Source: Sycon ciliatum (lineage: Eukaryota; Porifera; Calcarea; Leucosolenida; Sycettidae). Taken from it: a stretch of DNA of 64,000 nucleotides. Shown one piece after another: positions 6,187-54,500 of this stretch. The stretch lies in the NCBI RefSeq assembly GCF_964019385.1, contig NC_088649.1:18244617-18308616 (forward strand). The letters run 5' to 3'. The translations under genes were made by a program, and so were the position numbers. The notes beneath the pieces were generated by a model, which saw only the letters and a list, made by a program, of their open reading frames with translations, was not told the DNA's origin and made no database searches. Positions within the stretch are counted from its first letter, which is position 1, and each line of letters begins with the position of its first letter.

Positions 6187-6580
6187 TGTTGTACATGTGG
6201 CTGCGCTTGTGTCTCTTCGTTGTACATGCGGTTGCACGTGTAGCTCTTTGTCGTACATGTGGCTGCTTTTGTGTCTCTTTGTTGTACATGCTGCCGAGTC
6301 GTGGTACATGCTGCTGCGCTGTTTTTGACTCCTGCGTACATGCGGCTGCACCGTCTTCTGTCCCCTTCAATCTAATATATTCTGTTGTCTAGTCTTGTCT
6401 CAGTGTCAGTCGTCCGTCGTTCGTTGTCAGTGTTAGTTGTCTGATAACCATGAGTTCTCCATCGCCTACTGAAGCGAAGTAGAAGAAAAAGCTCTCTAAC
6501 AATTTGCACTAGTCCTTTGTTGTGTGGCGTGGCGAGGAGCCTAGAGCAGTTCGTGCACGGTTATCAAACCCGTGACGACA
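6187..6580 (+). repeat. 5' LTR
   Basis: 394 bp, TG...CA. The first 170 bases are built from about six degenerate units of roughly 30 bp starting GTACATG(T/C)GGCTGC, which would be U3 in a conventional layout. About the first 330 bases match the 3' LTR base for base by eye, while the last 65 differ at around nine positions. Confidence 0.92.
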
Positions 6581-8371: not shown

Positions 8372-8766
8372 TGTTGTACATGTGGCTGCGCTTGTGTCTC
8401 TTCGTTGTACATGCGGTTGCACGTGTAGCTCTTTGTCGTACATGTGGCTGCTTTTGTGTCTCTTTGTTGTACATGCTGCCGAGTCGTGGTACATGCTGCT
8501 GCGCTGTTTTTGACTCCTGCGTACATGCGGCTGCACCGTCTTCTGTCCCCTTCAATCTAATATATTCTGTTGTCTAGTCTTGTCTCAGTGTCAGTCGTCC
8601 GTCGTTCGTTGTCAGTGTTAGTTGTCTGATAACCATGAGTTCTCCATCGCCTACTGAAGCGAAGTAGAAGAAAAAGCTCTCTAACAATTTGTGCTAGTCC
8701 TGTGTTGTGTGGCGTGGCGAGGAGCGTGGAGGCAGTTCGTTCGCGGTTCTCAAACCCGTGACGACA
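8372..8766 (+). repeat. 3' LTR
   Basis: 395 bp, paired with 6187-6580. It is followed directly by ACTG, matching the four bases before the 5' LTR. Confidence 0.92.
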
Positions 8767-10893: not shown

Positions 10894-11419
10894 TATCTGC
10901 ATTGTTAGAAATCACACTTTGATATTTCAGATCTGTAGAATGATATGCGTTTTTTATTTTATTTTTTTTATTGGGAACATTTTTTGCTTCTTCAACTTTA
11001 AAAATACCTATTAAAAGTATGAATGCTGCAGACATCACCACGCAACAATACAATTTGTTCAAGGTTTGAAATTGCATGTATCCATAATCGATTTCCAAGC
11101 TCCAATCATGAGTGGAAATATGGAGCTAAAGTGATCAAGCGAAAAAAAGAAAGAAAAAAACAAGGGCAAAAAATCCAAGTAAGTGTGACAAATGACGTGC
11201 AAGTATTACAGAAGTGAGGCCTAAAATAAAGACAGAATGTACGTGTGACAAATGGGCATGACAAGTGTCGTCAATTTAATTGGACGATGCAACATTGGCG
11301 TCTGGCAATGGCTCGAACCCACGACCCATCGTACCCCCCGCGAGTAGGTACGGCGTGAGGACACAGCCTGTTGGGGCGGGGGAGCAGTGTAGCAAGAAGG
11401 ACCCATGAGTGTGTGTGTG

Positions 11420-11490
11420 ATCCCCGGTGGCCTAATCGGTAGGGCACTGTCCCGGAAAGACAGGGCTGGGTTCGAATCCCGCTCGTGGAT
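11420..11490 (+). tRNA. tRNA-like sequence (SINE head or tRNA pseudogene)
   Basis: A cloverleaf can be drawn. The acceptor ATCCCCG/CGTGGAT has one mismatch, the D arm starts GGCCTAATCGG, the anticodon stem is CTGTC/GACAG with loop CCGGAAA, and the T arm has GGGTTCGAATCCC. Position 33 of the loop is C rather than U, and there is an acceptor mismatch, so a tRNA-derived SINE or pseudogene is more likely than a working tRNA. A and B boxes are present. Confidence 0.6.
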
Positions 11491-12115
11491 CCTTCTTTCG
11501 CAACACAAGTGTGCAGAAACAACTCACGAATAAGGGGATATTTAACCTTTGTTTTTTACCTTGATGACTTTTGTTCCATGTTCCTTATTATTTTTATATT
11601 ATTATTTGTAGAAAGGAAAAGGACATATGGATATGAGTTAAGAGTAACTCTCCATCACTGTAACATGATACTATATACAGCCAGAAAGTGCAATAACTAG
11701 GCACAAAACTACCAGAGTACTGAGAAATTCGACGTCCTGACACCTAGCTTCAACACATCTCCGTAGCGCTAACCGACAGCCTTCCAACTTGGAAGGTTCA
11801 AGGTTATGGAAAGACCAAAGAGGGGAAGGCAAGCGCAACGAAAACGAGCAAAAGCTACAGTCCCAACGGAACAAAGAATGTCGATAGTTACTGGACGATG
11901 ACGAGACCAGTACGGTATTTGACAAAGCGGTCTAACTACAATTCAAAGCAGCAAAGCAGCACACCACCCAACTTGGGTGGATCATAAATATCAAAGATAA
12001 GTAAAGAAATGGGAAGCTTTGCGAAAACGAATTGTACAAGCCGAAAGCCAAACTCCTACAGTACTCCTCATGCATGACTTTGTGATGGACTAGTTGACTA
12101 AAAAACAAGTTGTTT

Positions 12116-12165
12116 CACACGACGTACGTTTCGCCGTATGGTTCGTGACGGCTCATCAGGTGTGC
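12116..12165 (-). ncRNA. Type I hammerhead ribozyme (family B)
   Basis: Read on the minus strand: stem I CACAC/GTGTG (5 bp), core CTGATGA, stem II GCCG/CGGC closing a 12-nt loop, then GAA and the short palindromic stem III ACGTACGT ending in the cleavage triplet GTC. Every core position of the hammerhead consensus is present. Predicted cleavage is between 12121 and 12120. The stem III/GTC block is identical to that of the 353-bp array although stems I and II are unrelated, so this is a separate family. Confidence 0.92.
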
Positions 12166-12486
12166 AATTTGAAACTCGGATGTTGAAACTCGGATGTTGA
12201 GCCTCTTTGGTCTTTCCATAACCTTGAACCTTCCAAGTTGGAAGGCTGTCGGTTAGCGCTACGGAGATGTGTTGAAGCTAGGTGTCAGGACGTCGAATGT
12301 CTCAGTACTCTGTCAGTTTTGTGCCTAGTTATTGCATTTTCTGACTGTATATAGTATCATGTTACAGTGATGGAGAGTTACTCTTAACTCGTATCCATAT
12401 GTCCTTTTCTTTTCTACATTTATTTATGGCTCAACATCCGAGTTTCAAATATTATTAATTTATTATTTATTCTTCTTCCGCAATTT

Positions 12487-12545
12487 CAAATTCGGACTTC
12501 ACGGGGTATTCTTCTTTTACTAGAGAATTCCCAACAGGCGGCAGC
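12487..12545 (-). mobile_element. CR1-like LINE 3' tail fragment
   Basis: On the minus strand this reads CCTGTTGGGAATTC(T)CTAGTAAAAGAAGAATAC, resembling the 3' ends of the LINE copies at 27940-28010 and 35700-35760 (GGGAAACACCCTAGTAAAAT). It is only a remnant. Confidence 0.5.
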
Positions 12546-13029
12546 GCCTTAGTTTCCACTCATGATCAGAGCTTGACAATTGATTCCGGATACATACAAT
12601 TTCAAACCTTGAACAAGTTGCCATGTTGCGTGGTGATGTCTGCCGCATTCATACTTTTCATAGCTATTATTAAACTTTCATCTCCACGTAGATTCTTCAA
12701 CTTTGCTTTCTATTCTTGTTTGTCTTTCTGATTGGCTCACCGCTTAGGAGCTGCTTCGCCGCCTTGATCCCTGGAGGGGCGGTGGGGTTCCTATGGATGC
12801 GGAAAACTCGGTCTCGCGCGAACCGTAGCATTTTTTTGCTCTCCAGTATAACGATGATTCCTCAAGAGTGCTGCACAAAAAAACTTGTTCTAATCGGGGT
12901 TTTTCATGCAATGAAAGGCTCTTTTACCGGGGCAAACAGACCACAATTATCGTCAGCGAATAGTTTAATCCAACGCAAAATAAACGACTTTTTCCATCGT
13001 CCTTTCTCACTTCGTTCCCTCTTTTCTCA

Positions 13030-13432: not shown

Positions 13433-14984
13433 TGGTGTATTGCACATTGTTTCTATTGGTTGTCAAACGTGTCAAATATCTAACTGAAAATCACTTCAGC
13501 TCGTCTTCTTCATGGCAATACTTGTCTTGTAATGCGTTATTGTGTGTACATTGTGCGTATGTGGTGTTGGTGCATGTGCCCGCGTGTTGCCATGGTGTGA
13601 AAAGCAGTCTCCGTCTCGAGTATGTCTTGTCCTGTTGTGCTTCCGACGGCCGTCCACTTGTAATAAACAGTCTTCCAAATGTAATTATCACGTCCATTGC
13701 CCAAGTGTGGAGATGGCACAGGGCTGGGAGCAGGTCAAGAAAACCACCTACAACAATTGCACTGCTGGCTCCTCGCCGTCTATTCAGACATTTGTCATGG
13801 CTACGTGTCAATGTCCGCACCCAATAACCCGTTGCATGCTGGCCTGTTTTCCCCAGTAATCTGGCACTCCGGCGCACAGACTCTCCTGGTGGAGTTTGGG
13901 CACACTGCTCCGATCAAAATTTATTCTCATTTCAGTTCACCTGGATGGAATTTCGTCATCCTGGGCTTGTTGGAAAGATCAGGACCAAGTAAATCCATCC
14001 TGGAAGCTCTCAGCTCCACGACCTCTCCAAACTGGCCCACCATGCCTCGGAACGAAACAACAACTCAGTCACACATTCTTTTTGGGCTCCTTGCTCAAGT
14101 TAAAACAATTTTCACGATTCAAACTGCTCTGCAAAGCTGAGATCCATGTGCTTCATTTGACGTCCATAATGCATGCGCTGGGCAAAAGGGAAATCCCCTG
14201 GCATGCTCCAAAAAACTGCGAAGTCACGAACAAACAAATTCGCATTCGCTACAGGCCGTGATTTCCGTGTTCTTTTTGTTGCCGCTCAGTCAACCTTTAT
14301 CCTACCGTGAACAACTTTATGGCTCTGCAAAGCTGAGCTCAATACCTTTCCAACGGTGTGTTGTTTGTGGAGATCGGATGCTTTTTCACAGAGTATCGAA
14401 AGTTTGTAGACTGGTCTATTCACCACGATACGCGACGCAAACCGAAGCGCGTGTATACACGTCATCAGAGAACCGGCATCGGTTCACTTTCAGGCGCGTG
14501 TATACACGTCATCCGGACGCAGAGGGTTAACAGAAATCAGGCACAAAACGATGGCATGGGCTAAAAGAAATGCTGCACTTACACGGCCGTCAAGACTCGT
14601 GACCTTAGTATGTCTGCTGGTAGACTAGTTAAATTGCAGCGGGTACAAGTGCTGATGCACACAAAACACAAAAGCAGACAGCAAGAGCATGCATTAGACC
14701 AGCATAAGTATCATGCGGACTACATGTGTGGGATCAACAATGAAAGGATGGAGTGATGCAGCCAGGTATCTTCGTCGCTCATCTCCCCGGGGGACATGCT
14801 TGCTCTAGGCGTTGCAATATTCGATAAGAGGCGGTAGAAACAGTGGCGGTTTAGGGGGTGTGCATGGCATGCGCCCCCCCCCCCCCCCTCAAAAGTTTCA
14901 ACCTGGGTTTGAACAAACACCAAGCTACTGCACTGGCAGCAGTTCGAAAAGAAGCGCTTGCGAGCAGCAGTAAATTAAATGGGA
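13433..14984. other. No gene recognised
   Basis: Several overlapping open frames of 100-150 residues occur, but none has a conserved domain or clean exon borders. Two copies of GCGCGTGTATACACGTCATC, each with the 12-bp palindrome CGTGTATACACG, lie at 14447 and 14493. Poly-C runs occur at 14872-14888. Confidence 0.5.
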
Positions 14985-15400
14985 AGCATACCGTAAATTC
15001 AAAATTTCACCAGTTGTAGTCTTTGGGGTGCCGAGTCGAATTGTCTAGGTCCGAGAAAGCTGAGACACTCCCTTCCTCCTTTGTTCCCAATCGAACTCAC
15101 CATTTCCACCGAAACTGGGTGACTGCGCCCTACTAGATGGCGATTTGTATGCAAAATGTCACTAAAAGCGCCATTTCGTTCTTATAAAAGCACGGATGAT
15201 TGCGACTGTTGTAGTCTTTTGGACGCGGAGTCAACTGGTTTTGGTCCGAAAAGGCTGCGATCAGCATTCGGCCCTTTTTCCTAATTGAACACGGTTGAGT
15301 AAGAGGTCACGTGCTTGTGCGTACACCAGTCGCCTGGTCACCGTGCCTGCAGCCTACAACTAATTATCACAGCAAGGTTCAACTCAATGGTTCAAAGGTT
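14985..15400. mobile_element. Partial arm of the AGGGGAAG fold-back family
   Basis: It repeats the left arm of the element at 15393-16265 (TCACCAGTTGTAGTCTTTGGGG, GTGACTGCGCCCTACTAGATGG, CATTTCGTTCTTATAAAAGCACGGATGA) with substitutions and small deletions. It stops at the start of the intact copy. Confidence 0.75.
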
Positions 15401-16265
15401 AAAGGGGAAGTTAAGGCTAAAATCAAAATTTCACCAGTTGTAGTCTTCGGGGTGCTTAGTCGAATGGTCTTGGTCCGAGGAAGCTGAGACACTCCCTTCC
15501 TACTTTAATCCCTATCGAACTCGCGCATTTACACCGAAACTGGGTGACTGCGCCCTACTAGATGGGGATTTGAATGCAAAATGTCACTGAAAGCGCCATT
15601 TCGTTCTTATAAAAGCACGGATGACCGCGATTGGCCCATATGTTGTAGTCTTTTGGACGCTGAGTCGACTGGTTTTGGTCCGAAAAGGCTGCGCAGCGTT
15701 CGGCCCTTATTCCCAATCGAACATGGTTGAACAAGCGGTCACGTGCTCCTGCGTACACCAGTCACCTGGTCACCGTGCCTGCAGGGCACAACTTACAGCC
15801 TGTTTTGACCTTTTTTGGGTGCAGTCCTGTCACTCGAGTTGACTCGAGTTGAACCTTGGCGTGAAAGTTGTCGCCTGCTGGCGCTGTGACCAGGTGATTT
15901 GGCCACGCAGGAGCACGTGACCGCTTGTTCAACCATGTTCGATTGGGAATAAAGGATAATAAAGGAAGAACGCTACATCGCAGCTTTCTCGGACCAAAAC
16001 CAGTCGACTCAGCGTCCAAAAAACTACAACATATGGGCCAATCGCGGTCATCCGTGCTTTTATAAGAACGAAATGGCGCTTTTAGTGACATTTTGCAAAC
16101 AAATCCCCATCTAGTAGGGCGCAGTCACCCAGTTTCGGTGGAAGTGCGCGAGTTCGATTGGGATTAAAGTAGGAAGGGAGCTTCCTCGGTCCAAGACCAT
16201 TCGACTCAGCACCCCGAAGACTACAAGTGATGAAATTTTGATTTTAGCCTTAACTTCCCCTTTAA
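15393..16265. mobile_element. Long fold-back element, arms about 420 bp
   Basis: TTAAAGGGGAAGTTAAGGC at the left and GCCTTAACTTCCCCTTTAA at the right are the ends of a near-complete palindrome. The arms contain, inverted, GTCGAATGGTCTTGGTCCGA, GACTGCGCCCTACTAGATGG and GCGTACACCAGTCACCTGG. The centre is near 15840, around GAGTTGACTCGAGTTGA. TTAA at both outer edges could be a piggyBac-like target or part of the repeat. No coding capacity. Confidence 0.82.
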
Positions 16266-16539
16266 ACTCAATGATTCAAAGGTTCAACTCGAGTGAGAGG
16301 AACGCTTCCAAACAGGCTGTAAGGTGTAGCCTGCGGGCACGGTGACCAGGTGACTGGTGTCAGCATGGGGGCCGTGGAGTCGAGTAGAGGGCCCAGGCTC
16401 GATTGGCACAACGGGTACGTATAGAACAAGGGTAGCACTTAATGCTAGTATAATGTAATTGTTTGTTCTGCACAACCTCGGGGGCAGAATTTGGCACGAA
16501 AGTCTCCGCTCGCTAACTGTTGGGTACTTGCTGAGTATA

Positions 16540-17296: not shown

Positions 17297-17308
17297 AGCT
17301 CCTTATAT
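17297..17308 (+). repeat. 12-bp target-site duplication, left
   Basis: AGCTCCTTATAT here and at 19243-19254 bracket the 353-bp array exactly. Direct repeats of this length are typical of target-primed insertion of a retrotransposed RNA. Confidence 0.85.
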
Positions 17309-17540
17309 TTGATAAATATGGTGGTAAAGACACACCTGGCAATATGGCGGTAAACACACGCCTGCCCACACACGCTCTCTAGGCTGCACAGTTCTGGCAC
17401 AGAGCTCTCCTTCTCACCACCACCACCATCAGTTCGCGCCTGGCGCCTGGTCGATGCATGGCTGGCGGTATCCGGCATAACAGGCTGGTACATCAAGTAG
17501 CGCATGGCACATAGATGATGACACAGCAACGACATAGCTC

Positions 17541-17584
17541 GATTGCGACGTACGTTTCGTCCCCGCTGGACTCATCAGGCAATC
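17541..17584 (-). ncRNA. Type I hammerhead ribozyme, array copy 1
   Basis: Minus-strand reading: GATTGC (stem I), CTGATGA, GTCC/GGAC stem II with an AGCGG loop, GAA, ACGTACGT stem III, GTC, GCAATC (stem I). Predicted cleavage is between 17547 and 17546. It is identical in sequence to copies 2-5. Confidence 0.95.
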
Positions 17585-17893
17585 TTCTTCCTTGGATGTC
17601 TTCATACGGAGCTTGACTCGGGAGAATGAAATTGAAGACACCACTGCAGCTGTACTTATGGTTGATAAATATGGTGGTAAAGACACACCTGGCAATATGG
17701 CGGTAAACACACGCCTGCCCACACACGCTCTCTAGGCTGCACAGTTCTGGCACAGAGCTCTCCTTCTCACCACCACCACCATCAGTTCGCGCCTGGCGCC
17801 TGGTCGATGCATGGCTGGCGGTATCCGGCATAACAGGCTGGTACATCAAGTAGCGCATGGCACATAGATGATGACACAGCAACGACATAGCTC

Positions 17894-17937
17894 GATTGCG
17901 ACGTACGTTTCGTCCCCGCTGGACTCATCAGGCAATC
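17894..17937 (-). ncRNA. Type I hammerhead ribozyme, array copy 2
   Basis: Same sequence as copy 1, offset by 353 bp. The segment between the two predicted cuts (17547-17899) would be released as a 353-nt monomer. Confidence 0.95.
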
Positions 17938-18231
17938 TTCTTCCTTGGATGTCTTCATACGGAGCTTGACTCGGGAGAATGAAATTGAAGACACCACTGC
18001 AGCTGTACTTATGGTTGATAAATGCGCGAACTGATGGTGGTGGTGGTGAGAAGGAGAGCTCTGTGCCAGAACTGTGCAGCCTAGAGAGCGTGTGTGGGCA
18101 GGCGTGTGTTTACCGCCATATTGCCAGGTGTGTCTTTACCACCATATTTATCAACCATAAGTACAGCTGCAGTGGTGTCTTCAATTTCATTCTCCCGAGT
18201 CAAGCTCCGTATGAAGACATCCAAGGAAGAA

Positions 18232-18275
18232 GATTGCCTGATGAGTCCAGCGGGGACGAAACGTACGTCGCAATC
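18232..18275 (+). ncRNA. Type I hammerhead ribozyme, array copy 3
   Basis: Stem I GATTGC (18232-18237) with GCAATC (18270-18275), core CTGATGA 18238-18244, stem II 18245-18257, GAA 18258-18260, stem III ACG(TA)CGT 18261-18268, C17 at 18269. Predicted cleavage is 18269/18270. Confidence 0.96.
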
Positions 18276-18584
18276 GAGCTATGTCGTTGCTGTGTCATCA
18301 TCTATGTGCCATGCGCTACTTGATGTACCAGCCTGTTATGCCGGATACCGCCAGCCATGCATCGACCAGGCGCCAGGCGCGAACTGATGGTGGTGGTGGT
18401 GAGAAGGAGAGCTCTGTGCCAGAACTGTGCAGCCTAGAGAGCGTGTGTGGGCAGGCGTGTGTTTACCGCCATATTGCCAGGTGTGTCTTTACCACCATAT
18501 TTATCAACCATAAGTACAGCTGCAGTGGTGTCTTCAATTTCATTCTCCCGAGTCAAGCTCCGTATGAAGACATCCAAGGAAGAA

Positions 18585-18628
18585 GATTGCCTGATGAGTC
18601 CAGCGGGGACGAAACGTACGTCGCAATC
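18585..18628 (+). ncRNA. Type I hammerhead ribozyme, array copy 4
   Basis: Copy of 18232-18275 shifted by 353. Predicted cleavage is 18622/18623, so 18270-18622 is one full monomer. Confidence 0.96.
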
Positions 18629-18937
18629 GAGCTATGTCGTTGCTGTGTCATCATCTATGTGCCATGCGCTACTTGATGTACCAGCCTGTTATGCCGGATA
18701 CCGCCAGCCATGCATCGACCAGGCGCCAGGCGCGAACTGATGGTGGTGGTGGTGAGAAGGAGAGCTCTGTGCCAGAACTGTGCAGCCTAGAGAGCGTGTG
18801 TGGGCAGGCGTGTGTTTACCGCCATATTGCCAGGTGTGTCTTTACCACCATATTTATCAACCATAAGTACAGCTGCAGTGGTGTCTTCAATTTCATTCTC
18901 CCGAGTCAAGCTCCGTATGAAGACATCCAAGGAAGAA

Positions 18938-18981
18938 GATTGCCTGATGAGTCCAGCGGGGACGAAACGTACGTCGCAATC
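18938..18981 (+). ncRNA. Type I hammerhead ribozyme, array copy 5
   Basis: Copy shifted by a further 353. Predicted cleavage is 18975/18976. The next monomer is cut short at 19242, before its ribozyme. Confidence 0.96.
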
Positions 18982-19242
18982 GAGCTATGTCGTTGCTGTG
19001 TCATCATCTATGTGCCATGCGCTACTTGATGTACCAGCCTGTTATGCCGGATACCGCCAGCCATGCATCGACCAGGCGCCAGGCGCGAACTGATGGTGGT
19101 GGTGGTGAGAAGGAGAGCTCTGTGCCAGAACTGTGCAGCCTAGAGAGCGTGTGTGGGCAGGCGTGTGTTTACCGCCATATTGCCAGGTGTGTCTTTACCA
19201 CCATATTTATCAACCATAAGTACAGCTGCAGTGGTGTCTTCA

Positions 19243-19254
19243 AGCTCCTTATAT
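19243..19254 (+). repeat. 12-bp target-site duplication, right
   Basis: AGCTCCTTATAT, identical to 17297-17308. The array joins it within TGTCTTCA-AGCTCC. Confidence 0.85.
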
Positions 19255-26889: not shown

Positions 26890-26972
26890 GGGAAAACGAG
26901 GACCGATGCCAGAGGGAGGTACTATTAATATAGCCGAATAGTACCTCCCTCTGGCATCGGTCCTCGTTTCCC
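26890..26972. repeat. Hairpin, 34-bp arms
   Basis: GAGGACCGATGCCAGAGGGA at the left and its reverse complement at the right are separated by about 14 bases. One single-base bulge breaks an otherwise perfect stem. This could be a very short fold-back element or a structured RNA. Confidence 0.75.
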
Positions 26973-32634: not shown

Positions 32635-34350
32635 ATTTGTATTATTATTATTATTTTATTTATTTTACTAGGCTGTAGGGTGTTTCCCACGACCTATGGT
32701 CTTCTTACGGGAGCCCCTAGAAAGGTTAAGCATGAACGAACAAATGGGCGATAATCTGTACAAGAGCGAACAGTGGAAGGCAGCATATTCCACCGATCAG
32801 AACCTATGTAGCCAAGACGAGAAAAACCAGCTTTAGTGTGGGCAGAAGGCAAGGCCAGAGAAAAAGAGATTTGGGACCTAGTGACGGCAGTAGTATGTGC
32901 ACTGGAGGAGCGGGTATGGAAAATTTCTTTTAGGAGAGAGCTACATGTGCCGCTATGGACAGAGCGAAATACAAGAATAAAAAAGCTTCAAATTGACTCG
33001 GACAGAAATGTGAGAGAGATTGTATAGGCTAAGAATATGAGAGGCACTGGTAAAGTTATCGAAACCAAAAACTATTCCTAGACACCTGTTAAATAGCCGG
33101 ACATACTTATCGAAATAGTAAGAACTGAGGGTGTGGACGTATGCGCTACTTGCATACTCCAATGACGACTGAATAACACTAAGGTAAAAGCTACGCCGTG
33201 CGTGGAATGGCAAGAGATGTCTTGACATGCGGTAGGCGCCGAGTTTCCTGTTGACAGACCCAATCAAACCGTCAATTTGTGGCCCAAAAGTCAGGTGCTC
33301 GTCAAGGACAATGCCAAGATAGTGTGCGGACTGCGCTCGAAGAACATGGACGCCGTCAATGACGACACTGGCGGAACCAGGCACTGCTGTTGTCTTTCTG
33401 TGAAGGAGGAGAAACTTCGTCTTTGCTGGGTTCAGCGTCATGTGCTTCTCTTCCAGGTAGACAGACAGCTTGGCCAGATCTCCGTTCAAAGCTCCGATGA
33501 CTTCCTCAGCAGAGTCACCAGCTGCATACATATTCACATCATCCGCAAACTGCAGAACTGTGGAACTGTTGACGCATGAGGGAAGACCACGGACATAGAG
33601 GCTGAATAGGATAGGTCCCAAACCAGACCACTGCGGAACACCCTGCGTACATGGCACGCGTGGCAGGCCCTCTGGTGCAATGAGCTGCTGCGTTCGATCA
33701 CTCAGGTAGCTTTTAAACCATGCCAGAGCCGAGTCACCAATCCCACAATCAAATAACTCATTCAACAGCAACTGGTGATTGACGCTGTCAAACGCTTTCC
33801 TGACATCAGCGAGCACTACGCCAACAACCTTCCCATTATCCAAATCTTTCATCCAGCTATCAATTGCAACAGCCAGGGCCTCCTCGCACGAGTGATATCG
33901 TCTGTATGCAAATTGCTGGGGTGGAATAATGTCGGGATTCTCTCTCAGAAGAAGGCTTAATTGGTTGTACACGTGCTTCTCGAGGACTTTGCTAGCGATC
34001 GGTAAAAGTGAAACAGGTCGGTAGTTTCGCGGTTCAGAGCGGTCCCCGCCCTTGAAAAGTGCTCTCACGGATGCATGCTTGAAAAGCGCAGGAAACTTAC
34101 TCTCCTCAATAGATGCCCTGAGAAGAGCACACAGGGAACCTGCCATCACTTCATGACATTTCTTGAAAAGGATCGGAGGCAACCCGTCTGCTCCGGGAGC
34201 TTTATGTGCATTGAGATTACGAAGGATCTTTACAACGTCAGTGACCGTAGGCTGCGAGATAGCCAAAGTCTGGCGATGGAGACCAGATGGGCAGTGAAGG
34301 TGTGTCCGAATGGGGTCTGAAACAGTTTGTGCAAATGTGCGGGAGATACT
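32635..34350 (-). mobile_element. CR1/Jockey-type LINE, 5'-truncated copy A
   Basis: It carries the RT-coding region and the complete 3' end. The 3' UTR finishes CCTAGTAAAATAAATAAAATAATAAT (minus strand) at about 32640. The 5' end is lost near 34350, where the inverted partner copy begins. 3' microsatellite-type tails and 5' truncation are typical of this group. Confidence 0.85.
32953..34266 (-). pseudogene. Reverse transcriptase of LINE copy A (5'-truncated)
   Basis: A 437-residue open frame carries the non-LTR reverse transcriptase. Visible blocks in order are HKAPGADGLPP (finger region), NYRPVSLLPIASKVLEKH, FAYRRYHSCEEAL, motif A VLADVRKAFDSVNH, motif B GVPQWSGLGPILF and motif C LQFADDVNMYA. 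Motif B normally reads PQGS; here the glycine is tryptophan, which should damage dNTP/template contacts. The open frame continues upstream to about 34340 without an ATG, and the endonuclease domain is missing, so the copy is dead. It resembles CR1/Jockey-group ORF2 proteins, and its product would have acted on its own RNA in target-primed reverse transcription. Confidence 0.88.
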
Positions 34351-34384
34351 TCATGCTTCTAGAGAGTAAGTCCTCGAGAAGCAC

Positions 34385-35467
34385 GTGTACAACCAATTAA
34401 GCCTTCTTCTGAGAGAGAATCCCGACAGTATTCCACCCCAGCAATTTGCATACAGACGATATCACTCGTGTGAGGAGGCCCTGGCTGTTGCAATTGATAG
34501 CTGGATGAAAGATTTGGATAATGGGAAGGTTGTTGGCGTAGTGCTCGCTGATGTCAGGAAAGCGTTTGACAGCGTCAATCACCAGTTGCTGTTGAATGAG
34601 TTATTTGATTGTGGGATTGGTGACTCGGCTCTGGCATGGTTTAAAAGCTACCTGAGTGATCGAACGCAGCAGCTCATTGCACCAGAGGGCCTGCCACGCG
34701 TGCCATGTACGCAGGGTGTTCCGCAGTGGTCTGGTTTGGGACCTATCCTATTCAGCCTCTATGTCCGTGGTCTTCCCTCATGCGTCAACAGTTCCACAGT
34801 TCTGCAGTTTGCGGATGATGTCATTGGGCAGATCTGCCCGTTTGGTTTGCGAATTGAAATAAACACAACAACACAACAACATGTGAATATGTATGCAGCT
34901 GGTGACTCTGCTGAGGAAGTCATCGGAGCTTTGAACGGAGATCTGGCCAAGCTGTCTGTCTACCTGGAAGAGAAGCGCATGACGCTGAACCCAGCAAAGA
35001 CGAAGTTCCTCCTCCTTCACAGAAAGACAACAGCAGTGCCTGGTTCCGCCAGTGTCGTCATTGACGGCGTCCATGTTCTTCGAGCGCAGTCCGCACGCCA
35101 TCTTGGCATTGTCCTTGACGAGCACCTGACTTTTGGGCCACAAATTGACGGTTTGATTGGGTCTGTCAACAGGAAACTCGGCGCCTACCGCATGTCAAGA
35201 CATCTCTTGCCATTCCACGCACGGCGTAGCTTTTACCTTAGTGTTATTCAGTCGTCATTGGAGTATGCAAGTAGCGCATACGTCCACACCCTCAGTTCTT
35301 ACTATTTCGATAAGTATGTCCGGCTATTTAACAGGTGTCTAAGAATAGTTTTTGGTTTCGATAACTTTACCAGTGCCTCTCATATTCTTAGCCTATACAA
35401 TCTCTCTCACATTTCTGTCCGAGTCAATTTGAAGCTTTTTTATTCTTGTATTTCGCTCTGTCCATAG
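34385..35467 (+). pseudogene. Reverse transcriptase of LINE copy B, catalytic site interrupted
   Basis: A 360-residue frame, nearly identical to copy A from the NYRPVS-distal part to the stop. Motif A (AFDSVNH) and the altered motif B (PQWSGLGP) are shared. Right after FADDV, a 63-bp insertion adds 21 residues in frame before NMYA, placing foreign sequence beside the catalytic aspartates. Since PQW is in both copies, they come from one already altered master or from duplication of each other. Confidence 0.88.
34822..34884 (+). mobile_element. 63-bp retroposon-tail insertion in the RT
   Basis: Compared with copy A, 63 extra bases follow GATGATGT. They contain CCCGTTTGGTTTGCGAATTG and end in (CAA)n, like the tail at 27112. 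A short ATGT direct repeat flanks it. The length is a multiple of three, which is why the frame stays open. Confidence 0.8.
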
Positions 35468-36944: not shown

Positions 36945-37170
36945 AATATAACTAAATGCGCACTCATATCACAACCATGGGGACGAATCATGTATTCCAG
37001 AACGTTTTCTTGTCACAATTATCAATGGAATTCGTGACTAAAGAGAATGATGAAACTACAAGTCTTTAGTCACGAATTCCATTGATAATTGTGACAAGAA
37101 AACGTTCTGGAATACATGATTCGTCCCCATGGTTGTGATATGAGTGCGCATTTAGTTATATTCATTGCAT
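36945..37170. repeat. Palindrome with decayed hammerhead motif (family E)
   Basis: The arms, about 36950-37050 and 37065-37165, are inverted copies (CATGATTCGTCCCCATGGTTG, GTGACAAGAAAACGTTCTGGAAT). The core reads TTGATAA instead of CTGATGA, but stem I (ATTCCA/TGGAAT), a TTG/CAA stem II and AACGTTC are kept. Bounded by (TAA)n on both sides. Confidence 0.65.
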
Positions 37171-38540: not shown

Positions 38541-38556
38541 ATAAGAAGAAAAGGGT

Positions 38557-38600
38557 TTGCTCCCCACACCGGAGCTCGCGCTATTCCGCCGACTTTACTT
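38557..38600. repeat. Copy of the CCCCACACCGGAGCTC sequence
   Basis: AGAAAAGGGTTTGCTCCCCACACCGGAGCTCGCG repeats one arm of the palindrome at 38990-39120 and the hairpin at 1493. Confidence 0.7.
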
Positions 38601-38692
38601 GACACTTGACTGACTCACGACTGCCATCCAGAGCACACGAGAAGTCCATCGAACCTTCGACTCGGCAAACCTGCAAGAAAGCACCACTCCCT

Positions 38693-38738
38693 GCTCAATA
38701 CACAGTGTTTCGGGGAATTCACCCCTCATCAGTTGAGC
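38693..38738 (-). ncRNA. Type I hammerhead ribozyme (family F)
   Basis: Minus strand: GCTCAA stem I, CTGATGA, stem II GGGG/CCCC closing TGAATT, GAA, stem III ACA(CTG)TGT, cleavage triplet GTA, then TTGAGC completing a 6-bp stem I. All stems are perfect. The triplet ends in A17, which the hammerhead rule (any base but G) allows but is less common than GTC. Predicted cleavage is 38699/38698. On the minus strand CTATATAAG lies about 40 bases upstream (38775-38783). Confidence 0.92.
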
Positions 38739-38989
38739 TTGAGTAGGCTGAGGAAGATTGTGCCTGAAGAGCACCACTTATATAGTGCTCTCCAGGCACA
38801 AACATCACCAGGGATACAAACTTACAGAGACGCTCCGTATCCAGCGCGACAAACACCTCGTGAACACCAGATAGCAGCGTGAGTCAGTGTCGCTCCTGGA
38901 CGGTGAGACAGACGTCGAGGACCCTCGGTCATTCGCAACGCTGTCACCTCCAAATCAACTAGTCGCAAGCCCGCGCTGGGCACAACAGT

Positions 38990-39118
38990 ACGAAGTAGTG
39001 GTTGCGACTTCGGCGATGATTTGTAAGAAAAGGGTTTGCTCCCCACACCGGAGCTCCGGAGGTGTGGGGAGCAAACCCTTTTCTTACAAATCATCGCCGA
39101 AGTCGCAACCACTACTTC

Positions 39119-39120
<2 letters not shown>
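38990..39120. repeat. Near-perfect 130-bp palindrome
   Basis: CGAAGTAGTGGTTGCGACTT...AAACCC at the left is repeated inverted at the right. The tip is CCGGAGCTCCGGAGG with a 3-base asymmetry. Each arm is about 64 bp. It is bordered on the right by (TAA)n, like the other palindromes in this part of the window. Confidence 0.9.
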
Positions 39121-39150
<30 letters not shown>

Positions 39151-42067: not shown

Positions 42068-44893
42068 CTAGCGTGAAAAAGCAAGGCATTGGGGTAACAG
42101 TTTCTTAAAACGGGCGGAGTTATCCACACAGCGAGCTAGAGGGTGCAAATCATTCCACAGCTTAGCACATTGGAAGGAAGCGCCATGACGGGCAAAGGCA
42201 GTTCTGAGCATGGGCAACTTAAGAGTGCGTGATACAAGGCTGCGCGTTGCAAGACCATTATTTAAACGCTCGAACATTTGACTTAATGTGACACTACAGC
42301 GGCCTTCCAAACAGCGCCACGTCAGATACAGTAATTTCTTGCAATACATGGTTGCCAAACGATCTAGACCAAGTCTCGCAAATAAAGGGCTTGATGGGCT
42401 ACAAAAACCAGTATCGTACACTGAACGCAAAGCTCGCTTTAGCATTCGTTCAAGCCTACCTAACTGGGTTAAGGAAAGGCCAGCAGAAAAACAATTTGAT
42501 GCATATAGAAAATCTGGCAACACTAGGCACTTTACGAAGGTTTCTCGGCAAGTCAGCGGAATATTGTGTCGATTTCGGAACAGAATACCAATTTTACTGG
42601 CTAGTTTGGAGACCATAGAATCAACTTGAGTGCTCCAAGAAAGATCCTGGTCCAAATGTATTCCAAGGTACTTTGCACATGTCACTTGCTTGAGCTGCAC
42701 TCCATGGCAGTAGACTGCAAATTGGTGGTCAGTAATATGTGGCGTAGACAGGAAGAGCACTTGTGTCTTCCGAGCATTTAGAATTAAATTGCGGTTTGAC
42801 AGCCAGGTACTAATGGCTGAGACAGCTGCAGACAGGGAGTTGCTAAGCGCATTCTTCTGCGTACCGCAAACATACAATAGAATATCGTCAGCAAATTGAA
42901 TAACTTTCACACAAAACTCGGAGACAATGGACTGGATCGAACGAACATAGAGTACAAAAAGCAGCGGACCAAGAACAGAGCCCTGGGGAACGCCACACAT
43001 GCAGGGGAAAGGAGGGCTATAGTTCTCAGCAATGTGCACTATTTGGCGACGATTGGACAAATAGTCGGCAAACCAAACTAATGCTGAGCCAGATATGCCA
43101 AGCTCAAACAAATCATTAATGAGCACTTGGTGCCTGACCTTGTCAAATGCTTTGGACATATCCACGAGCACAGCACCAGTAATTTGTCCGGCATCGCGAG
43201 CGCGAACAAACGTGTCCGTGACGAAAACTAGAGCGTCTTCCGTTGAATGTTGACGTCTAAAGCCAAACTGACAGGGAGGGTACAAATTCTCCTTGTCCAG
43301 AAATGAGGATAGTTGTCTATGGACAATTCGTTCTAACAGCTTCGACACAATTGGCAGGAGAGACACAGGGCGATAATTTCCCGGATCTTGAGGATTTCCA
43401 GCCTTGAATACCGGCGTGACATGTCCCAACTTCATGCCGTCCGGCACAGAACCAACAGCAAGAGATGCATTAAATATCAATGTTAAGGAGGGAGCTAGCA
43501 AATCAGCGCAGGACTTCAGAAGAAATGCGGGTATTCCATCACTGCCTGTCGCTTTGCTGGTGTCCAAGGAACCCAACAGTTTACGCACACAACCTATTGA
43601 CACCGAACTGAAGGATGTAAAACCTTTAGGTCCCACTGGGCCCTGTGGAAGACACAGTTCAGGTGCTCGTTGTTGATCACTGACAACATCAGCAAATACA
43701 CACCCAATGTTGCTTGCAGAGCATTGTGGAACGGATTGAACACGTTGTCTTCCGGATAACTCGTTCAAAACCTTCCACGTTTTCCTGGGATTACCTTGAA
43801 CACTGGTGAACTTAGACTGAAAAAAATTCGTCTTCAATTCACGGTTCATACGAGTCACGATACGCCTGGCTTCTTTAAACGCATCGTAATCAGTCTGGCA
43901 CTTAGATTGCAGCCATTTCCGATGAGCGTGGTTACGTCGTCGTATCAACAGGAACAAATGTTCATTGACCCATGGTGAATGCTGTCTTGGTCGGGAAGAC
44001 GCGTGGCGCAATGGAGCATGTGCATCAAGAATGGGCACAACCTTAGTCAGCCACTGTTGCCACATGTCATCGCAGGACCCACGAAGTTCACAGAGGTTGG
44101 CGCAAGATATATCCATACGAAGTGATGCCAAGTCCATTCTCTTGAAGTTTCGATAAAGTCGCTGAGAAGGCAATGCTGTCGGCACTGGTTTAACACAAAT
44201 CTTGGTTGCAATAGCACAGTGGTCGCTGAACGGAACTGGACACACATCAGGCGGGGATATGATTTGAGCTGTACTATAGACATGATCTAATAGAGTGCAG
44301 CTCCCTTGCAGCGTTATGCGTGTTGGAGATTTTACAAGTTGATGCAGGCCTAAGCTGGTTGTGATGTCATGCAAGGAAGCATGCTGGGATGTGGGAGATT
44401 GACTGACCAGATCAACATTAAAGTCACCACAAAGCAGAATATTCTTGGCTTCTCCCGATGCCTTGTGTAACATGGCCTCGAAAGTCTGCCAGTAAGCTAG
44501 TGACTGACTCGGTGGGCGGTAAATACATCCGACAAGAAGAGGTTGTGGGTGAGCTTTGATCTCTACCCAAATGCATTCAACGCCATCGGCTGTTAAGTCG
44601 GGACGTAGGTGACTAAACAGTGAGTTATTAACATACAAACATACACCACCTCCGGGTTTGTCGCGCCTGTCAAGCCGAAATAAAGTATAGTTTGCGATTG
44701 ACATCTCCATCGACGGAACGGAGTTGTTAAGCCACGTTTCACATACAGCAGCAATGTCAGTTTTTGTGTCCGATATCAATTGGGACAAGTCAGTAAGTTT
44801 ATTACGTAGACTGCAAATATTCAGGGACAGTGTCCGTATACATCCAGGGTAGAACGGGGTTGCGCCTGGGTTCATTTTACTACTACTAGCCAT
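42068..44893 (-). CDS. LINE ORF2: endonuclease and reverse transcriptase
   Basis: 941 residues, complete. The N-terminal 230 residues are an apurinic-type endonuclease with the ordered motifs LNICSLRNK (catalytic Asn), CETWL (catalytic Glu), GCIYRPPS, LLCGDFNVD and PFSDHCAI (catalytic Asp-His). The reverse transcriptase follows: TPVFKAGNPQDPGNYRPVSL, QFGFRRQHSTEDAL, motif A VLVDMSKAFDKV, motif B GVPQGSVLGPLLF and motif C IQFADDILLY. The order and the GDFN/SDH spacing fit CR1/L2/Jockey-group ORF2. The protein nicks the target and copies the LINE RNA there. ATG comes 2 nt after the ORF1 stop (TAA-CC-ATG), which suggests termination-reinitiation. No frameshift or stop was found. Confidence 0.93.
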   Translation of the reverse strand: MASSSKMNPGATPFYPGCIRTLSLNICSLRNKLTDLSQLISDTKTDIAAVCETWLNNSVPSMEMSIANYTLFRLDRRDKPGGGVCLYVNNSLFSHLRPDLTADGVECIWVEIKAHPQPLLVGCIYRPPSQSLAYWQTFEAMLHKASGEAKNILLCGDFNVDLVSQSPTSQHASLHDITTSLGLHQLVKSPTRITLQGSCTLLDHVYSTAQIISPPDVCPVPFSDHCAIATKICVKPVPTALPSQRLYRNFKRMDLASLRMDISCANLCELRGSCDDMWQQWLTKVVPILDAHAPLRHASSRPRQHSPWVNEHLFLLIRRRNHAHRKWLQSKCQTDYDAFKEARRIVTRMNRELKTNFFQSKFTSVQGNPRKTWKVLNELSGRQRVQSVPQCSASNIGCVFADVVSDQQRAPELCLPQGPVGPKGFTSFSSVSIGCVRKLLGSLDTSKATGSDGIPAFLLKSCADLLAPSLTLIFNASLAVGSVPDGMKLGHVTPVFKAGNPQDPGNYRPVSLLPIVSKLLERIVHRQLSSFLDKENLYPPCQFGFRRQHSTEDALVFVTDTFVRARDAGQITGAVLVDMSKAFDKVRHQVLINDLFELGISGSALVWFADYLSNRRQIVHIAENYSPPFPCMCGVPQGSVLGPLLFVLYVRSIQSIVSEFCVKVIQFADDILLYVCGTQKNALSNSLSAAVSAISTWLSNRNLILNARKTQVLFLSTPHITDHQFAVYCHGVQLKQVTCAKYLGIHLDQDLSWSTQVDSMVSKLASKIGILFRNRHNIPLTCRETFVKCLVLPDFLYASNCFSAGLSLTQLGRLERMLKRALRSVYDTGFCSPSSPLFARLGLDRLATMYCKKLLYLTWRCLEGRCSVTLSQMFERLNNGLATRSLVSRTLKLPMLRTAFARHGASFQCAKLWNDLHPLARCVDNSARFKKLLPQCLAFSR

Positions 44894-44895
44894 GG

Positions 44896-45912
44896 TTAAT
44901 CTTCAGTACTTTGTTCCTTCGTCGGCATGGACGCCTCGTCATGGAAGCGCCACTTTCTGACTGTGTGGCCGATGGTGGCAGGCCAAAACGCAGGCGTGAG
45001 TACGGTGTTGATGACATCAGCCGGAATGGTAACTTTTGCGTATGCTGTGCCGAAATAACGATTTGTGGCAATTGAACAGCGGATGATGTCAATGTTACGA
45101 TCTGCACAGTACCTGACAATAGATTGCGCCTCACAGCCAACTTCAACATTTCCTACATGCAGCACTGCAAGGCGTTTGCGTTCTACTCCACTTAGAACAC
45201 CTGGGGCTGCTGTTACAGTCACCTCCTTCACATACTTCGATGTGACAGATGAACGTACATGTAGTTCAGTACTGCCAGTAGCACTCGTGCCGGGATGTGA
45301 AGATGACCCACCTGATGCACGTGGGCGGTTTGGGCGTCGTGGACCTTGGGTTTGCCAGGACGAGTTCGAATCTTCAGTGCTGCCAGTACTCATACGAGCG
45401 GGTTTGTCGGTTTGCTTGGTCTGCTGGGTGTCGGTGGCAGTTTGCATAGACTGATGCTGTACATGTTTGTGGGAGTACGGTTTGGGTTCACAGGCTGGGG
45501 CTGGAGCAGACTGCGCTACGGTAGCGTACTGACGGTTCCTAACGTTAGCTGTGCTTTGCGTCTTCGCGCCCTCCTGCTGCCCTTCGTTTTTCATCGTTGC
45601 AATTTCCTGCTGTATGTGCTCGATGGTGGACTTCATCTCCATGAAACCAGCCATCTTCATAACCATGCCTTCAAGGGCCTTTGTAAAGTTTGCTAGGGAG
45701 TCATGCAGTGAAATACAGCTAGCACAACTTACTGGGGCAGAGCTTGCGTTGGTCCCGATTCCATTAGTCCGCAGGATCGCCACAAGTTCTTGTCGGCTCA
45801 GCTTCGATTGACCTTCTTGGAGCACCTTCTTGGATCTTGCAAGGTCACGGATATTGTCATATGACATTGTAGCAAGGTCTACTTCTTCATTCTCACTCAT
45901 GGTCTCACTCAT
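44896..45912 (-). CDS. LINE ORF1: RNA-binding protein
   Basis: About 338 residues, starting at the ATG of MSETMSENEE. I see an N-terminal SAP-like helix pair (NIRDLARSKKVL... LSRQELVAIL), a CxxC followed by a helical coiled-coil-like stretch (about residues 70-120), a basic Ser/Thr/Gln-rich disordered linker, and a C-terminal segment (VLHVGNVEVGC...IDIIRCSIA...AYAKVTIPADV) that looks like an RRM-type fold. ORF1 proteins of this kind coat the LINE RNA and act as chaperones. No CCHC knuckles are present. An in-frame TTG three codons further upstream is not needed. Confidence 0.8.
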   Translation of the reverse strand: MSETMSENEEVDLATMSYDNIRDLARSKKVLQEGQSKLSRQELVAILRTNGIGTNASSAPVSCASCISLHDSLANFTKALEGMVMKMAGFMEMKSTIEHIQQEIATMKNEGQQEGAKTQSTANVRNRQYATVAQSAPAPACEPKPYSHKHVQHQSMQTATDTQQTKQTDKPARMSTGSTEDSNSSWQTQGPRRPNRPRASGGSSSHPGTSATGSTELHVRSSVTSKYVKEVTVTAAPGVLSGVERKRLAVLHVGNVEVGCEAQSIVRYCADRNIDIIRCSIATNRYFGTAYAKVTIPADVINTVLTPAFWPATIGHTVRKWRFHDEASMPTKEQSTED

Positions 45913-52622: not shown

Positions 52623-54358
52623 TTACGGGTCAAGCTCGTACACTCCGTCGGTGTCATCGATGAACGGAGCGGCGGCCGGAGAGGCGCCGAAGGAAGACGG
52701 CATGATGCTGTAGGCGTTGAAGTTTGCTTGCTCACCCCTGCCACCACCACCACCAGTGTTGTTGGCCAGTTGGTCATACTTCTGGTCGTCGTTGCGTCGC
52801 AGCTGCGCCAGCTGCTGATTGGCTGCTTGATTGGCACCAGCTGCTCCCATTACGCTGTTGGCCTTGCCACCCGGGCCAGGACGCCGTGCCGTGGAGTAGC
52901 GTGCCGAGCCACCGCCACCACCGCCTGCTCTCGGCGATGGCGCTCTGGCTGAGCGGGAGCGCTGAAGGGAAGCGCTGGTCCCACGCCCGCCATCGCCTCG
53001 CCTCTGATAGGAGCCGGCGTTCGAGTTGTTTCTCATCTTGCCAGGCGAGGTCATCGGCTGCAGTCCGCTTAGATTTGTGGCAGAACGCACGCGACCAGCG
53101 CCCGTCAGTTGACTAAGCATCGACGGGGGCGGGGGCAATTCTGTACTCTGCTTGTGGCCCGGCAAGGCGCTCACACAGATCGACTGAGTGGAGTAGTTCT
53201 GGTTGTACAGCGACTCGTCCACATCCGCGGCTTCCATCTTAACGGTCATGAGCGACGGTGTCATTGAAAGGCGATGTTCGGATGCTGCTTTCGCCGCTGT
53301 CCCCGACTCCCCTGGCCCAATTGAGCCAGTGCTGTAGCAGTTGTAAAGTTCATTTGCCTGCATGCTGCCGATGTTATGAGCCGCAGCCTCGAGCTCTTGT
53401 TCAATTGCGTTCACGTCAAAGTTCATGGCAGGTGGATCAGGCATGTTCATTGCCTCGTAGTTTTCCTGAGGTTCGTTTTCGGCGTAGAAATTCTCCGTGC
53501 ACCTTGGGTCCAGTGAGACTTCGTAATGCTGCGGGGTGGTGGAGCGAGACTCCAGCGCCAAGTCCGCTGCTGCTGGTTCATGTTCCGACACGGATGCCAT
53601 GTACAATGCCAGCGAGTGCGGCGGAGCGTCCGAGCACGGGTTGGGCAGAGGTGCAGGAGTGTTGTCGGCACGCTCTACCGGCGGCCGTTGGAAGCTGTCC
53701 CTGCTGGCCAGTGGCGTGGAGTTGGCGTAGCGGTCAATGACCTTCGGTATCGGACCTCTGCCACCGGGCACGGGCCTTCCACTTGGCGAGCGCTGGGGCG
53801 GTCGACGGTGGGAGCCGCTGCGATCCACGCCGGCACCGCGTATGGCATCGGCACCCAGCTGCATGGTGTTGACCGGCATGGCCTCGTACAGGTCTCCGTC
53901 ATCTCCCCCGGCCGCCGACGCCACCGCGTTCATGTCAAGATCGGCCGTGTCGATGCGCTGGATGCCCGGGTGGTGGCGCTGGCCAGGGATGTCTGCGTAC
54001 GTGTCCAGCTCGCCGGCGTTGCTCGGCCAGAACTGGCTACCGGTGGTCACGTTGCTCTGCCGCACCTCCGGCCGGTCGTACTCAAACTGAACTGTCGACG
54101 CGCTCATGCTCGGTTTAGCCGACATCATGCTACCAGCGCCGGCGTGCAGGGGTGACTCGGCGCCGTACATGCCGTTGGCGTTGTCCCTGCTCAGCTGGCG
54201 CATGCTGGCCTTGCTCTCCAGTCGGTGCTGCCGGGTGACGTTGTGCCGATGCATGAGCAGGGCAATCACGCTCACAATGAGCAGGACGCCCACGGCAGAT
54301 GGAGCAATGATGATTATAGGGATGCTCGAGGAGTCGCTACCTCCAGCCATGTTCACTC
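52623..54358 (-). CDS. Sushi-domain receptor, last exon: transmembrane helix and cytoplasmic tail
   Basis: The exon opens after a good acceptor (TCTGTTCACTGCAG) at 54360-54359 with two bases that complete the G left by exon 57887-58078, and it runs 577 codons to TAA. Residues 13-36 are a hydrophobic helix (IPIIIIAPSAVGVLLIVSVI), followed by HRHNVTRQHR, so the tail is cytoplasmic. The tail is long and disordered, with basic and Gly-rich parts (PSPRAGGGGGG), proline stretches (RRPPQRSPSGRPVP, LPPPPS) and many tyrosines in SH2-type settings. YEAM occurs twice (YxxM, the PI3-kinase type); there are also YADI, YAEN, YMAS, YEVS and a terminal YELD. I infer a phosphotyrosine-signalling receptor; I do not recognise an orthologue. 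Confidence 0.85.
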
Positions 54359-54500
54359 CTGCAGTGAACAGACACAGGGAAACACCACAGATACAGCATT
54401 CAGTCACAGTAGCTCTCTAGAAGTAGATTGAACACGAACATGGTTGTATCCAGGTGCTAGTAGAGGGTTCTTGTACTTGCACGACTGGAGCTTGTCCTCT

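Follow-up and report, generated by a model that had tools for sequence, protein, structure and literature searches.

Anatomy of a putative retrozyme-type insertion with two head-to-head arms and a 12-bp target-site duplication

According to the main text of PMC7229834, the retrozymes of metazoans are tandem arrays in which every unit, about 150-450 bp long, carries a type I hammerhead ribozyme, and their target-site duplications (TSDs), if present, are longer than 4 bp. They lack LTRs, PBS and PPT, the circular RNA is highly self-paired, and the repeats have a G+C content below 50%, which is a property of the group and not a strict criterion (PMC7229834). Self-cleavage, linear and circular monomer RNA in tissue and many genomic copies are further characteristics. 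In the retrozymes of invertebrates and of the axolotl, helix III consists of 2 bp and a tetraloop, and the axolotl ribozymes cut better as dimers (PMC7229834). The LTR retrozymes of plants are described in the same source as elements of 600-800 nt with a type III hammerhead, LTRs with PBS and PPT, and a TSD of 4 bp. Cervera and de la Pena (2020) left open both the mobilising enzyme and the DNA-priming of the circle, and Penelope-like elements (PLEs) were named as strong candidates for moving the retrozymes of animals on account of shared features and co-existence (PMC7229834).

The insertion of PLEs has been reconstituted by Frangieh et al. (2024) with PAc, a purified protein from an anole PLE, which cuts and extends both strands of the target (PMC11167929). 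PAc prefers AT-rich targets. It begins to copy the RNA at either of two neighbouring internal positions in an AC-rich stem-loop, neither of which is homologous to the target; the stretch between the start sites corresponds to the 30-40-bp 'tail' of genomic copies. Uncleaved RNA was used in vitro, ribozyme cleavage was not needed and hammerhead mutants inserted normally (PMC11167929). Penelope insertions of rotifers have inverted pLTRs, mostly head-to-head, one of which carries a tail of 31 bp; their TSDs measure 8-10 bp, and some copies are without a TSD or possess direct pLTRs only (PMC3846280, in part).

Anatomy and ribozymes of the insert

The insert, here called EL1, occupies positions 17309-19242 (1,934 bp) of the 64-kb window, by which we mean the whole stretch of DNA that was analysed. 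It is composed of two head-to-head arms which together comprise 5.48 units of 353 bp. Unit coordinates are counted from the base directly after the predicted cleavage site, with 18270-18622 as the reference unit. The left arm (17309-18023, minus strand) measures 715 bp or 2.03 units and covers unit coordinates 230 to 238, while the right arm (18024-19242, plus strand) measures 1,219 bp or 3.45 units and covers coordinates 108 to 267. Exact extension of the reference unit ran to 17309 on the left and 19243 on the right with no mismatch in either arm, and the outer boundaries, 17309 and 19242, agree with those proposed in a preliminary description of this DNA. Its period of 353 was likewise found by TRF, on 17302-18023 and again on 18024-19243. 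The same description had read the locus as a simple tandem array of nearly identical copies. The 353-bp units are indeed there, but they form two TSD-bounded arms with two hammerhead blocks on the minus and three on the plus strand, and the copies are not nearly but fully identical. The strand switch at 18023|18024, where the period is interrupted because of this change of strand, had been overlooked, as had the 12-bp direct repeat around the insert. At this junction the arms adjoin with no base in common.

A perfect 12-bp TSD, AGCTCCTTATAT, lies directly outside both ends (17297-17308 and 19243-19254). A shared 12-mer was found in only 201 of 1,000,000 random boundary pairs from the window, with 25 offsets allowed per pair. 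Base 19243 (A) could belong to the unit or to the right TSD copy, and the end of the insert was set at 19242. At its 3' end the right arm extends 29 nt further than the left arm (19214-19242, plus strand; unit coordinates 239-267), a stretch which we call the tail. No A-rich or simple-repeat tail was present at either outer end. Five bases of the left target, CTTAT (17302-17306), agree with the unit in register, so the target could anneal to the RNA at this point, unlike in the PLE assay. A blastn search of the window for further copies of the 353-nt unit gave nothing beyond the level of chance, the longest match having 17 bases; within these 64 kb the family is represented by a single locus.

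Taken together, EL1 looks like a retrozyme-type insertion that landed in one event. The complete identity over 5.48 units supports a recent insertion. Recent activity in general, which the preliminary description had deduced, does not follow from a single locus.

Each of the five hammerhead blocks (17541-17584 and 17894-17937 on the minus strand; 18232-18275, 18585-18628 and 18938-18981 on the plus strand) was matched by the Rfam model Hammerhead_1 (RF00163) with 35.4 bits and an E value of 3.7e-05, the gathering score being 34. The covariance model thus bears out the intact type I hammerheads recognised earlier, and the exact identity of the five blocks was verified by string matching over 44 nt. 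Helix I (GAUUGC/GCAAUC) has 6 bp, the core is formed by CUGAUGA and GAA, helix II is GUCC/GGAC with the loop AGCGG, and helix III consists of 2 bp (AC/GU) closed by the tetraloop GUAC. The cleavage triplet is GUC, which places the predicted cleavage of the third block at 18269|18270. A pattern composed of the hammerhead core and stems occurred at seven places in the window, five of them in EL1, and in none of 100 dinucleotide-preserving shuffles; a relaxed pattern found the identical seven places and nothing in 60 shuffles.

The hammerhead was not the minimum free energy (MFE) structure in any of the three hammerhead elements of the window, of which EL2 and EL3 are described below. Its energy was -7.7 kcal/mol compared with -10.5 kcal/mol for the MFE fold of the 44-mer in EL1, and the corresponding values were -5.8 and -14.2 kcal/mol in EL2 and -10.8 and -11.3 kcal/mol in EL3. 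Forcing the hammerhead into the 353-nt circle of EL1 cost 7.0 kcal/mol (-95.9 instead of -102.9 kcal/mol). Energy models do not score the non-canonical contacts in the core of hammerheads, so these energies neither prove nor exclude activity. The sequence ACGUACGU is self-complementary (duplex energy -9.8 kcal/mol), and a helix III of 8 bp would therefore be possible in a dimer of the EL1 RNA. Folding of the unit as a circle, which had been suggested as a check, gave an MFE of -102.9 kcal/mol, but 188 of 200 shuffles were equally or more stable (z about +1.4, plus strand). For the minus-strand circle this was true of 191 of 200 shuffles (z +1.5). A particularly stable circular fold is not supported. 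Read as a circle, the RNA strand of the unit also has a frame that runs for 143 codons with no stop (18245-18676), which exceeds one lap; a frame of this length was equalled in six of 1000 shuffles and is perhaps due to chance.

EL1 shares with metazoan retrozymes the tandem units, here of 353 bp, with one type I hammerhead each, the TSD of more than 4 bp (12 bp) and the 2-bp helix III closed by a tetraloop. It differs from them in the G+C content of its unit, 52.7% instead of less than 50% (EL2, 43.8%; EL3, 53.4%; whole window, 48.1%), and in a predicted circle that is not unusually stable. The earlier assignment to the retrozymes consequently holds for the units, the ribozyme type and the TSD, but not for G+C content or folding. 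Judged by its sequence EL1 would be a bona fide member of the retrozyme type, with G+C content as the exception. With the LTR retrozymes of plants it has in common units bounded by hammerheads, and those elements are thought to move via circular RNA (PMC7229834, in part); its type I hammerhead and 12-bp TSD set it apart from them, and LTRs, PBS and PPT were not noticed in it.

Two further hammerhead elements and the offset of arm ends

The remaining two hammerhead patterns of the window belong to elements with the same design, so that head-to-head arms were found in all three hammerhead elements. EL2 has a unit of 606 nt, of which its left arm (11608-12203, minus strand) comprises 596 nt; a type I hammerhead is located near the 5' end of this arm (12115-12165, minus strand). 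This ribozyme has complete core bases and was matched by the pattern scan as well as by RF00163, in the latter case with 26.8 bits, a value below the gathering score (E value of 0.025 for the window). The right arm (12204-12448, plus strand) is 245 nt long; its last 31 nt represent the tail, which reaches 21 nt into the next unit. Because the left arm begins with the sequence of these last 21 bases, the unit can be taken as 606 nt and the template would have been circular or multimeric. The two arms have two bases (CC) in common at their junction and show 7 differences in 216 aligned bases, which suggests that EL2 is an older element. Its TSD, situated in AT-rich surroundings, is interrupted by a single indel (ATATTATTA-TTT). 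An inverted repeat (10994-11127 and 12543-12677, 85% alike) encloses EL2 together with a tRNA-like match at 11421-11490 (33.6 bits); the arrangement from 10994 to 12677 is perhaps a SINE inside an older palindromic element.

The left arm of EL3 (38546-39056, minus strand) measures 511 nt or 1.07 units of 479, as seen from a perfect 32-bp direct repeat (38546-38577 and 39025-39056) spaced by 479 bp. The right arm (39061-39121, plus strand) has only 59-61 nt, including a tail of 34-36 nt, and forms a perfect 61-bp inverted repeat with 38989-39049 around a palindromic centre of 11 bases (39050-39060). A hammerhead with stems of 6, 4 and 3 bp and the cleavage triplet GUA was recognised at 38693-38738 (minus strand) by pattern scans and folding; it had no Rfam match, even at E values up to 10. 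The TSD is blurred by an (AAT)n run at the target. Shortly 5' of the ribozyme, the minus strand of EL3 contains a long hairpin (38758-38803) with TATATAA in its loop, which by eye resembles a promoter, and a weak miRNA-like match (38759-38800) falls in this hairpin.

When both arms are read in the sense of the RNA, their outer 3' ends do not coincide. The offset is 29 nt in EL1 (coordinates 238 and 267), 31 nt in EL2 and 34-36 nt in EL3, and it is the right-hand arm that reaches further in all three. Compared with the 30-40 nt of PLE tails, EL1 is just under the range and EL2 and EL3 are within it. If the ends were uniformly distributed, the probability that no offset among the three exceeds 36 nt would be 0.004, and that of three within 27-40 nt would be 2e-4 (computed with an EL2 unit of 605), values that serve as a guide only, as the comparison covers three elements from one window and the range of 27-40 nt was set after EL1 had been seen and with the literature range known.

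Regarded as putative start sites of reverse transcription, the arm ends of EL1 follow the cleavage site at 238 and 267 nt. A count by hand gave about 514 and 545 nt for EL2 and 153 and 189 nt for EL3, which speaks against a start structure common to the elements. A constant distance between ribozyme and start site fitted EL1 and EL2 but was ruled out by EL3. By our arithmetic from the published data, the start sites of PAc are about 85-92 nt after the cleavage site, with the second one 30-40 nt nearer (PMC11167929, in part), compared with 238 and 267 nt in EL1. An AC-rich loop was predicted at the start sites of EL1 (CAACC) and EL3 (CAACCA). In EL2 such a loop was seen with short windows and was gone with a window of 69 bases, and CAAC occurred in a hairpin loop in 65 of 2000 random 69-mers. 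As a feature of all three elements an AC-rich start hairpin is doubtful; it may apply to EL1 and EL3 only. The insertion targets are AT-rich in EL2 and EL3 and partly so in EL1. Self-priming at a palindromic junction, which has been proposed for rotifer PLEs (PMC3846280, in part), was rejected as a general route since the junction is blunt in EL1, has the CC overlap in EL2 and is palindromic in EL3 alone.

Proposed copying from both target ends and the alternatives

EL1 resembles PLEs in its type I hammerhead, its tandem and head-to-head arms, its short TSD and the tail of about 30 nt on one arm. Because the arms are head-to-head, bounded by a TSD and offset at their 3' ends, we suggest that priming was two-ended and of the PLE type. 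The reading we prefer, with a probability of roughly 0.6, is that EL1, a retrozyme of the animal type and non-autonomous, was inserted in one event by PLE-type copying from both target ends. Transcripts of an array would cut themselves at GUC|GCAAUC into 353-nt monomers and a host ligase would close these into circles, the release of which from transcripts had already been envisaged in the preliminary description. The protein of a PLE, or an enzyme closely resembling it, would make a staggered cut in the target with 12-nt 3' overhangs, and each target end would prime DNA synthesis on the retrozyme RNA. Either of two internal sites, spaced by about 30 nt, would serve as the starting point. Synthesis would run for 2.03 laps on one side and 3.45 laps on the other. 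The two cDNAs would then be joined head-to-head, bluntly in EL1, and fill-in of the overhangs would produce the 12-bp duplication. The units, the ribozyme motifs, the head-to-head arms, the identical copies, the TSD and the offset 3' ends can be read from the sequence; that the ribozymes are active, that the template was a circle and which enzyme did the copying are those parts of the model that we infer. Several observations speak against the model: no GIY-YIG domain in the scanned ORFs of the window, a sample of three elements from one window, the varying distance from ribozyme to start site, the imperfect TSD of EL2 and the blurred one of EL3, the CTTAT match at the left target of EL1, the weak evidence for an AC-rich loop in EL2, the hammerhead folds that differ from the MFE structures, and the insertion of uncleaved RNA by PAc.

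The RNA copied into EL1 was probably circular. A circular template is favoured by the complete identity of the units and by the arm of 3.45 units, which runs across three ribozyme sites. In contrast to PLEs, EL1 possesses no ORF for a reverse transcriptase with GIY-YIG domain but 353-bp units only, and a GIY-YIG domain was absent from the 15 scanned ORFs of the window. EL1 is therefore not a PLE, although it may have been moved by one.

It might be argued that a circle is superfluous, if priming from both ends by a PLE-like enzyme took place on an uncleaved linear multimer from another array, with neither ribozyme nor circle taking part in the insertion. A linear multimer is conceivable as a template because PAc inserted unprocessed RNA in vitro, hammerhead mutants being normal in this respect (PMC11167929, in part), and because most shuffles (188 of 200) fold at least as stably as the 353-nt circle. 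However, it requires an RNA with at least three uncut ribozyme sites and a donor array of identical units, and we consider this route rather unlikely.

More doubtful is twin priming of the LINE type, in which a LINE reverse transcriptase would copy a retrozyme transcript that is linear and multimeric. Priming from the second target end inside the same RNA would then give rise to the inverted arm. Twin priming with TSDs is known from LINE-1, RVT_1 domains are encoded by five ORFs among the 15 that were scanned, one of them together with a LINE endonuclease, and the CTTAT match at the left end of EL1 would aid internal priming. On the other hand, the outer ends of EL1 are free of A-rich or simple-repeat tails. 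Moreover, internal priming by a LINE would be expected anywhere in the unit, whereas the arm ends are at most 36 nt apart in all three elements. We regard it as unlikely.

Growth of a satellite array in the DNA by unequal exchange or replication slippage, followed by an inversion, has a precedent in so far as the hammerhead repeats of newts were originally described as satellite DNA (PMC7229834, in part). With a TSD exactly at the ends of EL1, no mismatches, only 5.48 units and the identical design at two unrelated loci, EL2 and EL3, such an origin is very improbable. Perfect inverted repeats are hard to assemble, but an inverted arm made by a fold-back or collapsed repeat in the assembly is scarcely credible given that the arms of EL1 are unequal in length and phase, that its differing flanks have the TSD in common and that the arms of EL2 have diverged (7 of 216 positions).

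Returning to PLE-type copying from both target ends, we tentatively extend it, with the balance tilting slightly against the extension, to the proposal that animal retrozymes are satellites of PLEs, for which a circle-making hammerhead and the start region of a PLE reverse transcriptase suffice, and which spread by two-ended rolling-circle target-primed reverse transcription. If this is true, such priming would lead to head-to-head multimers with arm ends offset by about 30 nt, and a mismatch-free insertion bounded by a TSD would be a record of both cDNA start points. The anatomy of EL1 thus bears on the question of what mobilises animal retrozymes. Should the offset of about 30 nt hold genome-wide and in other animals, retrozymes would be tied to the PLE machinery by sequence alone, and their mobilisation would become testable in any long-read assembly.

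Head-to-head arms with an offset of about 30 nt distinguish EL1 from the metazoan retrozymes of PMC7229834, a paper whose main text does not contain the terms 'inverted', 'head-to-head' or 'twin priming'. More generally, we found no description of this insertion anatomy for retrozymes in the literature searched, subscription papers lying mostly outside it. Within the same literature no paper combined 'retrozyme' with 'head-to-head', and among the papers on twin priming and Penelope none dealt with retrozymes by title. A 27-base piece had no match in a collection of genome contigs. The exact helix III type of the hammerhead was searched for in viral contigs with no match, and a looser hammerhead pattern was found there in at least 120 stretches.

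Other features of the window

The window has a eukaryotic character. Besides the five ORFs with RVT_1, a sixth of the scanned ORFs had a weak zf-RVT match below the cut-off. The LINE ORF at 42068-44902 gave 104 protein matches, one with 100% identity over 77% of the ORF and others with 38-49% identity. Among the matches labelled with a source the best were two 'scpid' proteins (42% identity), whose prefix is in use for the calcareous sponge Sycon ciliatum (PMC6526912), a weak pointer to a sponge as host. The RVT_1 ORFs at 32953-34350 and 34370-35467 encode closely similar proteins on opposite strands. For the ORF at 52626-54416 no Pfam family and, among 7,995 candidates scored, no homologue at E values up to 0.001 was found.

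A composite of units of about 425 bp is located at 14975-16365. It consists of two direct copies (14975-15361 and 15399-15793) and an inverted arm (about 15846-16365), which are 79-86% alike; a reading by hand put the offset between its arm ends at about 81 nt. The composite was rejected as a fourth hammerhead element since neither Rfam nor the pattern gave a hammerhead in it.

A 31-bp tandem array occurs twice, at 6187-6290 and 8372-8475, about 2.2 kb apart, with 3.4 copies and equal consensus and score. Finally, matches to microRNA precursors at 36975-37132 and 26894-26969 remained below threshold (best 77.7 bits, gathering score 139) and are probably hairpin-forming repeats.
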